From: Methylocystaceae bacterium
GTDB lineage: Bacteria > Pseudomonadota > Alphaproteobacteria > Rhodospirillales > Terasakiellaceae
Length of the DNA stretch: 64,000 nucleotides
Reading direction: 5' to 3'
Assembly (NCBI GenBank): GCA_013373205.1
Contig: JABXIG010000003.1
Span: forward strand, 620,001 to 684,000
Position 1 is the stretch's first letter. Every line of letters starts with the position of its first letter. Position numbers and translations under genes: made by a program. The notes under the pieces are model-generated. The model was not told the DNA's origin, made no database searches, and saw only the letters and a list, made by a program, of their open reading frames with translations. Below, in pieces: positions 25,611-36,809 of the stretch.

Positions 25611-34002
<8,392 letters not shown>

Positions 34003-34021: not shown

Positions 34022-34068
34022 AAAGAAAAAGCCGGGTAGGGCAGTTGCTCTATCCGGCTTTTTCTTTT
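34022..34068 (+). terminator. Terminator of rpoBC
   Basis: AAAAAGCCGG...CCGGCTTTTT hairpin of about 16 pairs with an AGTT loop, followed by TTTCTTTT. Confidence 0.92.
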
Positions 34069-34095: not shown

Positions 34096-34236
34096 TTATT
34101 CGGCTTTCTTTTCGATCCATTCCCCGGCTTTTTGCACATCTTTACCAACGCCTTCCATCGTGCTGCAGGCCGATGTTAACCCGAGCAAAGCCATGGCGAA
34201 AAACAAAGCAAATATATTTTTTGCGGTCACTTTCAT
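34096..34236 (-). CDS. Entericidin-like small lipoprotein
   Basis: 46 residues: basic start, hydrophobic signal segment, lipobox-like LTSAC with Cys24, then TMEGVGKDVQKAGEWIEKKA, the entericidin EcnA/B pattern. Predicted to be lipidated and membrane-anchored. ATG 34236 has GAGG (minus strand) nearby; the frame is open further upstream, but the signal peptide fixes this start. Entericidins are linked to envelope stress or toxin-antidote lysis, though alphaproteobacterial members are little studied. Monocistronic. Confidence 0.8.
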   Translation of the reverse strand: MKVTAKNIFALFFAMALLGLTSACSTMEGVGKDVQKAGEWIEKKAE

Positions 34237-34395
34237 TAGGTGTCCTCGTTTTATAAATGTTCTCAGTCTATAAAATGTAACCCAAATGACTGTAAAATCA
34301 AATGGCTGAGATTTATTGCGCTGCAAAACAGCCTTGCAAGCTTTTTTAAGCTCTCTATACTTTTCTAATTATTTTCTTTGTCATTAGAAAACGAA

Positions 34396-35466
34396 ATGAT
34401 TGTTGAATATGACCCTATGCTTGTCTCTTTATCCATACTGATTGCGATCAGTGCGGCCTATACGTGTTTTCATTTGGTTGACCGTCTGAGCGTTGCCCAT
34501 AGCCTGACATGGAAATTAACATTGGTTGCGGCTTCTTTTTCAATTGGCGGGGGGATTTGGGCAACGCATTTTGTCGGTATGCTGGCCTTTCAATTGCCAA
34601 TTAATGTTGCTTACGATTTTCAGGAAACACTTTTATCAGCCCTGATTGCCATTGCCTTTACGGCTTTTGCGCTTTATCTGGTGACATTTAGAATCCCAAC
34701 GTTGGCAAAGACTTTCTATTCAGCTGTCCTGATGGGGTGCGGGATTTGGATGATGCATTATATCGGAATGAATGCAATTATTGCCCAATGCATCGTTCAA
34801 TATGATCACTTATGGGCCTTTATTGCCTTGTTGATTGGCATTGCGGCCTCATTCCTTGCGCTTCATTTGGCATTGAGCGTTAAATCACGTTGGGAACAAT
34901 TGCCTGCAGCTGTGGCGATGGGCTTGGGTATTGCGAGTTTGCATTATACGGGCATGTATTCGACCGCTTTTATCGCAACTGAGGCTGTTCCCCTTAATGT
35001 CACATCAAGTATAAATGCGTCCGTAATGGCAGTGGTGATTACCTTGGCGGCGTTTGGCATATTTGGATCTACTTTTTTGTTGGCAACCCCAAGCCCGCGC
35101 GCGCCACAAGATGCAACAGAAAAGGCACAGGAACGAATAAAATTAAAGGTAAGAGCAGCTAGTCGCACCCTCTATCTTGAAGCAGAGGATATTCGGTTTA
35201 TTAAAGCGAATGGTCGTTATAGTGATGTGACGACAGAAAAAGCGACCTATCTGTGCGATTTATCTATATCAACATTGGATGATATGCTGACTCCTTATGA
35301 TTTTTTACGTGTGCATCGCAGCTATCTGGTCAATCTGGCCGAGATCGTTTCTTTTAGTCCCAATAAGGACCGAGGGGTGATTACGATGAATAGTGTCCTT
35401 GGCGGTCAGGACATCCCAATCAGTCGTGCTAAGTTAGAAACAGTTAAAAACCGCCTGTCTCTATAG
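34396..35466 (+). CDS. MHYT-domain membrane sensor fused to LytTR DNA-binding domain
   Basis: A 356-residue one-component regulator. The first ~235 residues form about seven membrane segments carrying three MHYT-type repeats: THFVGM (57-62), MHYIGM (120-125) and LHYTGM (182-187), whose His/Met residues are thought to bind a metal (copper) and sense a diatomic gas. A linker leads to a LytTR domain (248-356) with YLEAEDIRFIKANGRYSDV and FLRVHRSYLVNL. The same architecture occurs in CoxC/CoxH of CO-oxidising bacteria. ATG 34396 is chosen over TTG 34378. cowN lies 116 bases downstream, with a candidate operator in the gap. Confidence 0.88.
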   Translation: MIVEYDPMLVSLSILIAISAAYTCFHLVDRLSVAHSLTWKLTLVAASFSIGGGIWATHFVGMLAFQLPINVAYDFQETLLSALIAIAFTAFALYLVTFRIPTLAKTFYSAVLMGCGIWMMHYIGMNAIIAQCIVQYDHLWAFIALLIGIAASFLALHLALSVKSRWEQLPAAVAMGLGIASLHYTGMYSTAFIATEAVPLNVTSSINASVMAVVITLAAFGIFGSTFLLATPSPRAPQDATEKAQERIKLKVRAASRTLYLEAEDIRFIKANGRYSDVTTEKATYLCDLSISTLDDMLTPYDFLRVHRSYLVNLAEIVSFSPNKDRGVITMNSVLGGQDIPISRAKLETVKNRLSL

Positions 35467-35478
35467 ATTTTGAATGAT

Positions 35479-35509
35479 TGACACTGGTGATGCATGAATG
35501 ACATTGGTG
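35479..35509 (+). promoter_or_regulatory. Direct repeat upstream of cowN, candidate LytTR operator
   Basis: TGACACTGGTG (35479-35489) and TGACATTGGTG (35499-35509) differ at one base and start 20 bp apart, i.e. same face of the helix after two turns. LytTR proteins typically bind such tandem direct repeats. A TATAAA at 35545-35550 could be the cowN -10; the matching -35 position is poor, as expected for an activated promoter. Confidence 0.55.
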
Positions 35510-35582
35510 CCAAAACACTTAAAACCATAAAAAAATAATGGAAATATAAAGTTGAATTAATCAAGGCTGAAAGGTGAGAAAA

Positions 35583-35882
35583 ATGGTTGAAAGTTGTTCT
35601 GTTGTAGATCGATATGTCAGTTTCGAAGGCATCGAATGTGATAAAAATGCTGAAATTCTGATGGAGTATGTTGAACGCCTGGCAACGGGTCCAGCGAAAG
35701 AGAACAAATATTGGCAATTTTTCATGACCAAGATTGAAAAAAGCCGTGCTGGTGATACCGGGGTGGGCGATGCCTTGTTCCTTGTTCATGCCAATATCAA
35801 TGTAATCCGTGAGCTTTTTGAAGAATATGAAGACGACGTGGCATTAGAGTTGCTTGAAAAAGTCGAAATGGAATGTTGTTAA
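35583..35882 (+). CDS. cowN: CowN, N2-fixation sustaining protein
   Basis: A 99-residue protein with the CowN pattern: DRYVSFEGIECDKNAEIL near the start, KYWQFFMTKIEK in the middle, ALFLVHANINVIRELFE, and the terminal ECC. CowN is known to let nitrogenase work in the presence of carbon monoxide. ATG 35583 is preceded by GAAAGGTGAG. No nif genes lie in this window, so nitrogenase must be elsewhere if present. The adjacent MHYT-LytTR gene is a strong candidate regulator; the following DUF1640 gene may be co-transcribed. Confidence 0.88.
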   Translation: MVESCSVVDRYVSFEGIECDKNAEILMEYVERLATGPAKENKYWQFFMTKIEKSRAGDTGVGDALFLVHANINVIRELFEEYEDDVALELLEKVEMECC

Positions 35883-35949: not shown

Positions 35950-36210
35950 ATGACGGCTTTGATTTTTGATACGCATGTATTTGTAAAAAGGTTGGTCAGT
36001 GCAGGAATGCCGGAAGCACAAGCTGAAGTGCTGGCCGAAGAACAGACCCGTTTAATAGATGAACAACTGGCGACAAAGCAGGATTTGAAGCAGTTAGAAC
36101 TTACAATGCGGACGGAATTAAAACAGATCGAACAGTCGATTACCATCCGTACAGGGGCTATGATTTTAGCCCTTGGTGGCTTTCTCGCAGGAATTAAGTT
36201 TTTTGCCTGA
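35950..36210 (+). CDS. DUF1640-like coiled-coil protein with C-terminal membrane segment
   Basis: 86 residues from ATG 35950 (GAGG three bases upstream): FDTHVFVKRLVSAGMPEAQAE, then a coiled coil (EEQTRLIDEQLATKQDLKQLE) and a final hydrophobic helix (AMILALGGFLAGIKFF). This is the compact bacterial DUF1640/CCDC90-like layout; function unknown. It starts 67 bases after cowN with no terminator between. The str operon promoter lies immediately downstream. Confidence 0.75.
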   Translation: MTALIFDTHVFVKRLVSAGMPEAQAEVLAEEQTRLIDEQLATKQDLKQLELTMRTELKQIEQSITIRTGAMILALGGFLAGIKFFA

Positions 36211-36437: not shown

Positions 36438-36809
36438 ATGCCTACTATTAACCAACTGATCCGCAAGCCGCGTAAGCCGAAACCAGTTCGTAACATGGTT
36501 CCCGCTATGGAAGCTTGCCCGCAAAAGCGTGGTGTTTGTACCCGCGTTTATACAACGACACCGAAGAAACCGAACTCAGCTTTGCGTAAAGTTGCTCGTG
36601 TTCGTTTGACCAACGGTTTCGAAGTAACATCTTACATCCCTGGTGAAGGCCATAACTTGCAAGAGCACTCTGTCGTGATGATCCGCGGCGGCCGTGTAAA
36701 AGATTTGCCTGGTGTTCGTTACCACATCATCCGTGGTGTTCTCGATACACAAGGTCTGCAAGATCGTCGTCAACGTCGTTCGCACTACGGTGCGAAGCGT
36801 CCGAAATAA
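36438..36809 (+). CDS. rpsL: 30S ribosomal protein S12
   Basis: 123 residues; accuracy-centre protein of the 30S subunit. Conserved [18 protein letters not shown] and [13 protein letters not shown] are intact, with wild-type lysines at the two streptomycin-resistance positions. ATG 36438 begins [12 protein letters not shown]. First gene of the str operon. Confidence 0.98.

Follow-up and report, generated by a model that had tools for sequence, protein, structure and literature searches.

The window, that is the whole stretch of 64,000 nucleotides that was analysed, contains a CoxC-clade membrane regulator directly in front of cowN, and this gene pair is probably a one-component switch through which nitrogenase is protected in response to CO. 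Nitrogenase is tightly inhibited by CO, and the CO regulators so far associated with cowN are CooA and RcoM. The parts are known; the pairing, of a CoxC-type sensor with the cowN slot, is new. The features of the locus, in window coordinates, are as follows.

34023-34066, + strand: terminator-like hairpin after rpoC, separating the upstream operon from the gene pair
34334-34361, + strand: weak sigma-70-like site before the regulator
34396-35466, + strand: MHYT-LytTR membrane regulator of the CoxC clade (356 aa; Pfam domains, tree and model)
34396-35085, + strand: seven-helix MHYT sensor, residues 1-230 (Pfam and predicted structure)
35164-35457, + strand: LytTR DNA-binding domain, residues 257-354 (Pfam and Foldseek)
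35469-35501, - strand: site in the gap that best fits the RcoM/CoxC operator model (two units of 13 bp with 20-bp spacing)
35471-35489, + strand: direct repeat unit 1, period 20 bp, candidate operator (16/19 matches to unit 2)
35491-35509, + strand: direct repeat unit 2, period 20 bp
35583-35882, + strand: cowN, nitrogenase protection versus CO (99 aa; Pfam and NCBIfam)

The sequence-only reading had described the regulator as a membrane sensor with three MHYT motifs fused to a LytTR domain, and this architecture is borne out. Specifically, Pfam assigns both MHYT (PF03707, E 1.7e-40) and LytTR (PF04397, E 7.4e-20) above the curated cut-offs, a whole-genome search places three MHYT repeats above cut-off in the protein, and the AlphaFold2 model (mean pLDDT 86.8, pTM 0.63, from a 13-row alignment) shows seven long helices, a low-confidence linker at residues 234-246 and then a beta-rich domain. 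This last domain resembles solved LytTR domains, the best being 3d6w with a Foldseek E of 3.4e-6, and a sequence search against solved structures returned for the regulator a single weak LytTR match (E 0.0046). No PAS match was obtained in the regulator at 0.001, meaning that the N-terminal PAS sensor of the RcoM type is absent. The open reading frame is intact and retains residues 307, 308 and 344 of the LytTR core.

The three motifs read THFVGM (residues 57-62), MHYIGM (120-125) and LHYTGM (182-187), so the count of three holds as regards the His, which is present in each, and does not hold as regards the Met start, which is found in the second motif only. When compared with 57 aligned MHYT-LytTR relatives (a count that excludes three proteins added last, including L221), His58, His121 and His183 are kept throughout, residue 57 is Thr where all 57 relatives have Met, and residue 182 is Leu where 34 relatives have Met and 23 have Val. 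The conserved Met/His set of CoxC-subfamily MHYT motifs is accordingly incomplete, with the His kept and Met57 lost, and because Met57 is replaced by Thr the metal site of the regulator may differ. As judged from this alignment, the Met57 to Thr replacement would be the strongest warning against a CO/copper reading and also the best lead for an altered affinity or gas choice. In the LytTR domain the regulator has Arg at position 274, which we take, by AgrA, to be a DNA-contacting residue. His occupies this position in 54 of the 57 MHYT-LytTR relatives (the other three have Arg) and in 30 of 31 RcoM-like proteins, and L051 has Arg as the regulator does.

That the regulator lies directly upstream of a CowN gene is likewise upheld. 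The product of cowN matches Pfam CowN at E 7e-33, above the curated cut-off, and the NCBIfam equivalog NF033689 at 106.9 bits relative to a cut-off of 48; the gene is full length and follows the regulator on the same (+) strand after a gap of 116 bp (35467-35582). No difference from known CowN proteins was noted, and a sequence search gave no convincing match of CowN among solved structures. The known role of CowN is described as protection from CO (PMC8047169), and keeping nitrogenase active under CO is its predicted role here. Both genes stand between rpoC (29770-34002) and rpsL (ATG near 36438), as named from their translations, and no terminator-like site is listed in the gap between the regulator and cowN. 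The sigma-70-like site before the regulator is regarded as weak because the region has three such sites relative to 6.1 in shuffles. Also in this interval are a gene for an entericidin-like small lipoprotein between rpoC and the regulator (34096-34236, - strand), a similar one being visible by eye beside cowN in the sister species G258, and a gene for an 86-aa protein between cowN and rpsL (35950-36210, + strand), which has a weak CCDC90-like match below cut-off and was not seen at the G258 site.

The gene content of the source genome (4.09 Mb in 69 contigs, listed as 100% complete) is of particular relevance to the signal. It codes for one LytTR protein, and MHYT matches occur in it three times, all within the regulator. 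At 0.001 there was no match in this genome to the aerobic CO dehydrogenase large subunit (coxL-type) or to the catalytic subunit of the anaerobic enzyme (cooS-type). The remark that neither CooA nor RcoM adjoins the pair can be extended to the genome as a whole, where no CooA-like or RcoM-like match was found, the sole LytTR protein being the MHYT-LytTR regulator; the CooA query was the Crp/Fnr protein adjoining cowN in Rhodobacter sp. CZR27, which we infer to be CooA and which gave no match at 1e-8. A nif cluster is present, with nifH, D, K, E, N, B and the end of nifA passing cut-off (nifD and nifK were identified in L112). Two genomes of the genus, the source genome and G258, have both cowN and an above-cut-off nifH, and G254-G257 have neither. 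In the host order, cowN was found in 49 of 317 genomes, and the expected co-occurrence with nif is observed: nifH is above cut-off in 41 of the 49, and the other eight have partial or weak nifH matches, some in broken assemblies.

We placed the regulator among other MHYT proteins with an MHYT-domain tree of 69 of 98 rows, composed of 17 named rows (including the regulator), 12 random MHYT-LytTR rows and 40 others. The regulator falls inside the MHYT-LytTR clade with support of 100/99, together with 28 other MHYT-LytTR rows and apart from the 40 other MHYT proteins, none of which carries LytTR. Its sister at 100/98 is L064, which stands before coxM-S-L, and CoxC of Afipia carboxidovorans OM5 (L199) belongs to the same clade, with 31.7% identity to the regulator over a full-length alignment. 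A tree of the LytTR domain was dropped as a guide to origin because the regulator's domain sits on a long branch; there it joins L051 with a long-branch warning.

The sequence-only reading had named MHYT-LytTR proteins as neighbours of CO dehydrogenase genes, and this association is confirmed by the genomes. Among the matches listed, coxM stands directly beside 54 of 59 other MHYT-LytTR genes, a set that includes some near-copies, and cowN beside none of them. In the order and class samples the count is 13 of 15 other full MHYT-LytTR open reading frames (11/12 and 2/3). In the genome-contig scan, in which 80 of 592 confirmed stretches are listed and give 44 full open reading frames, it is 41 of the 44 among the matches listed, again with cowN beside none. 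The first set of class matches consists of 10 rows with frames of 380-412 aa, all 10 being MHYT-LytTR by coxM, and the added set of five rows (399-432 aa) contains three MHYT-LytTR proteins (two by coxM) and two without LytTR; for class rows with longer frames LytTR was examined in those of the MHYT tree, and the fragment L111 at a contig end was left out of the MHYT-LytTR count. For one MHYT-LytTR gene without an adjoining coxM, L065, a strong coxL is located at a distance of 13 kb on the same contig, and around L221 neither cox nor cowN is present within 16 kb.

CoxC is described as an MHYT-LytTR repressor whose sensing of CO by means of copper was demonstrated in 2024: it represses PcoxB, CO relieves this repression, copper is needed and O2 acts against CO, and its operator consists of three direct repeats TTNNNGCN with two-turn spacing that overlap the -35 box (PMC11347149). 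The regulator shares with OM5 CoxC the MHYT-LytTR architecture, the MHYT clade and the position directly before an effector gene. The effector is different, however, being coxMSL there and cowN here, and the regulator further departs from OM5 CoxC in the lack of a CO dehydrogenase match in its genome, in the Met57 to Thr replacement and in an operator that is diverged or inverted. The CoxC-subfamily architecture, MHYT fused to a C-terminal LytTR, is present, and strict CoxC orthology, which takes standing with cox genes as its mark, does not apply in a genome with no coxL-family match. A present role as a cox regulator was rejected for the same reason.

We also compared the neighbourhoods of cowN. 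Of the 49 cowN genomes of the order, 31 have a PAS-LytTR (RcoM-like) gene as a neighbour of cowN, and the coordinates place 30 of these genes upstream on the cowN strand and one convergent. All 31 proteins form a single PAS-LytTR family in the alignment, in which one His of the sensor part is invariant; since Pfam PAS passes cut-off in only one of three scanned, the name RcoM-like rests on alignment, size and published cases. Such cases include rcoM adjoining cowN in Rhodospirillum rubrum and cooA adjoining it in Rubrivivax gelatinosus (PMC4257681), as well as cooA adjoining cowN in Gluconacetobacter diazotrophicus (PMC8047169). In 17 of the 49 loci the stretches fetched show no LytTR neighbour of cowN; in L015 and L029 the stretch covers under 700 bases before cowN, and in L012 and L062 it stops shortly after the gene. 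An MHYT-LytTR gene is found at cowN in one of the 49 genomes, the source genome itself, and this count, along with the 0 of 59 MHYT-LytTR loci that adjoin cowN among the matches listed, contradicts the expectation that the adjacency would be conserved in relatives. In a class sample of 385 genomes, cowN is above cut-off in five, of which three are new (G366, G427 and G660); there was no match to the regulator near cowN in these three, and two of them have, by eye, RcoM-like neighbours. The plasmids contain one cowN record, which adjoins a Crp/Fnr gene and has no MHYT gene annotated in the surrounding 6.5 kb, and viral contigs gave no match to the regulator's peptide patterns. A full-text literature search of limited coverage found no paper treating CowN together with MHYT.

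The sister species G258 is informative in this regard. Its cowN likewise stands between rpoC and rpsL, with a product alike in 88 of 99 residues, and this genome (90% complete) gave no match to the regulator at 0.001, its only LytTR-like match being below cut-off and elsewhere. This indicates that the regulator-cowN pairing is not conserved in the genus (two species). At the position of the MHYT-LytTR gene, G258 has a PAS protein and an MCP-type receptor (L063:554-2238), possibly another gas-sensing pair. The gene order of these loci conserves a LytTR-regulator slot at cowN, rather than the regulator gene itself, and a regulator assigned to the CoxC clade occupies the slot that is filled in many relatives by a PAS-LytTR (RcoM-like) regulator. 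The two types are alike in their LytTR output, in their position before cowN and in a two-unit gap pattern with a period of 20-21 bp, and they differ in the sensor, which is a PAS domain in the RcoM-like regulators and a seven-helix membrane MHYT domain in the window. The PAS sensor of RcoM is a soluble haem protein. Pairs of cooA and cowN resemble the window pair in that a CO regulator gene adjoins cowN, although CooA is of the CRP/FNR type.

We then considered whether the gaps behind these regulators share an operator. Of 31 RcoM-like gaps, 30 were used for training (the convergent L014 was excluded), and they yield a two-unit model with CCGTTCGTGCAGC twice, 19-21 bp apart. Training was not blind because the model was seeded with a 13-base word picked by eye. 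It scores at least 15 in 28 of the 30 RcoM-cowN gaps, with L047 and L048 below 3. Application of this model to coxC-coxM gaps is an independent test, as it was untrained on cox, and it reaches at least 14 bits in 43 of 52 such gaps, which include near-copies (for example L107 and L114, with identical sites). None of 51 regions upstream of coxC and none of 1120 windows within coxC genes reach this threshold, and among 52 reverse complements one does; all of these operator counts exclude three MHYT-LytTR loci added last, including L221. For OM5, a score of 24.4 is obtained upstream of coxB, at what may be the mapped operator, and the coxC-coxM gap scores 19.6. The shared operator is located directly behind the regulator gene in both RcoM-cowN loci (L005-L056) and coxC-coxM loci (L064 and L101-L171), with a period of about 20 bp. 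Thus, a single operator plan appears to be common to PAS-LytTR and MHYT-LytTR regulators, given that a model derived from RcoM-cowN gaps scores coxC-coxM gaps.

The gap in the window contains a direct repeat with 16 of 19 matches at a period of 20, a level reached in 6 of 2000 shuffles (k 19) and in 35 of 2000 when any period of 8-45 is allowed; at other word lengths the shuffles reaching the observed repeat number 179 (k 11), 427 (k 12) and 92 (k 14) of 3000. With up to three mismatches, the pattern has a single occurrence in the genome, which is this gap. On the + strand, the strand used by relatives, the gap scores 4.28 bits with the operator model, a value reached at 62 of 63967 positions of that strand, and 0.23 with a joint model trained on the RcoM-cowN and coxC-coxM sets. 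On the - strand it scores 12.3 bits, and 10.94 with the joint model, the latter being reached at 6 of 127934 positions on both strands, gap site included. The minus-strand core of the site matches the L051 operator in 13 of 14 bases; 13 matches were reached in 0 of 150 shuffles versus all 71 operators and in 15 of 3000 versus L051 alone. No operator match was found upstream of cowN in G258 (-6.3 and -11.1 bits) or upstream of the regulator gene (-10.2 and -12.6 bits), and no GG-N10-GC sigma-54 core was seen in the gap by eye. There is moderate support for this gap as a candidate LytTR operator, which could act on either strand and with either sign.

In the proposed CO switch, the MHYT domain would hold a metal in the membrane, copper by analogy with CoxC, and would bind CO. 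CO binding would then alter how firmly LytTR holds a two-unit operator between the regulator gene and cowN, and CowN would be produced in the presence of CO, when the Mo-nitrogenase has to be shielded. As to the sign, de-repression of the CoxC kind is a guess, with activation as in RcoM the alternative; CO binding, the copper, LytTR binding to the gap and the sign of control are all predicted. A role of the regulator as CO sensor for cowN is well supported, though not confirmed, by its CoxC homology, by the RcoM-like genes in the same slot and by the lack of CooA-like, RcoM-like and CO dehydrogenase matches in the source genome; the sequence-only reading, which proposed this role, is partly sustained on these grounds and fails on conserved adjacency. 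The points against the switch are a pairing seen in one genome, G258 cowN without the regulator, a modest operator match and Thr57.

Other readings of the pair give these same observations a different weight. It is unlikely that the regulator controls cowN with O2, NO or copper status as its main signal, which would tie cowN to N2-fixation conditions and not to CO. Congruent with such a signal are Thr57 in motif 1, which is seen in none of the 57 other aligned MHYT-LytTR proteins, the source genome in which no CO-oxidising genes were found, and descriptions of MHYT domains linked to NO in other proteins and of CoxC as thought to meet both CO and O2 (PMC11347149). The MHYT domain nevertheless belongs to the CoxC clade, whose tested member is described as freed from DNA by CO and not by O2/CO2 (PMC11347149), and the role known for CowN concerns CO (PMC8047169). 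Quite improbable in our estimate is an arrangement of chance neighbours, with cowN being NifA-responsive or constitutive and the regulator either controlling other genes or being the remnant of a lost cox cluster. An intact frame with three MHYT His and the LytTR core, a position at the RcoM-like slot of relatives, a repeat pattern whose single occurrence in the genome is in this gap, and no sigma-54 core seen there by eye all argue against chance, even though G258 has cowN at the same locus without the regulator, 17 of 49 cowN loci have no LytTR neighbour, the regulator's LytTR domain is on a long branch and no coxL-type match is left in the genome.

With regard to how the CO switch could have arisen, we lean slightly toward a sensor exchange, in which the CoxC line supplied a copper-type CO sensor in the membrane that replaced, or substitutes for, the haem sensor RcoM at cowN, with the LytTR output and the 20-bp two-unit plan kept. 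If the MHYT sensor does act at cowN, the job of the CoxC family would be widened from CO burning to N2-fixation defence. If the exchange is also true, this would be the first MHYT regulator targeting nitrogenase protection rather than CO oxidation, and Thr57 would be a natural gas-site variant. With two genes and no cox matches in its genome, the pair would be a compact system for studying the MHYT gas site, and the operator pattern common to RcoM-cowN and CoxC-cox gaps would make targets of CO-sensing LytTR proteins predictable.

Finally, three MHYT-LytTR genes in other genomes (L116, L155 and L221) have neither cox nor cowN neighbours in the stretches fetched. The MHYT-LytTR gene of Breoghania corrubedonensis (L142:7953-10173), whose fetched stretch contains no cox genes, adjoins a haem-binding-uptake (ChaN-like) gene on the opposite strand.
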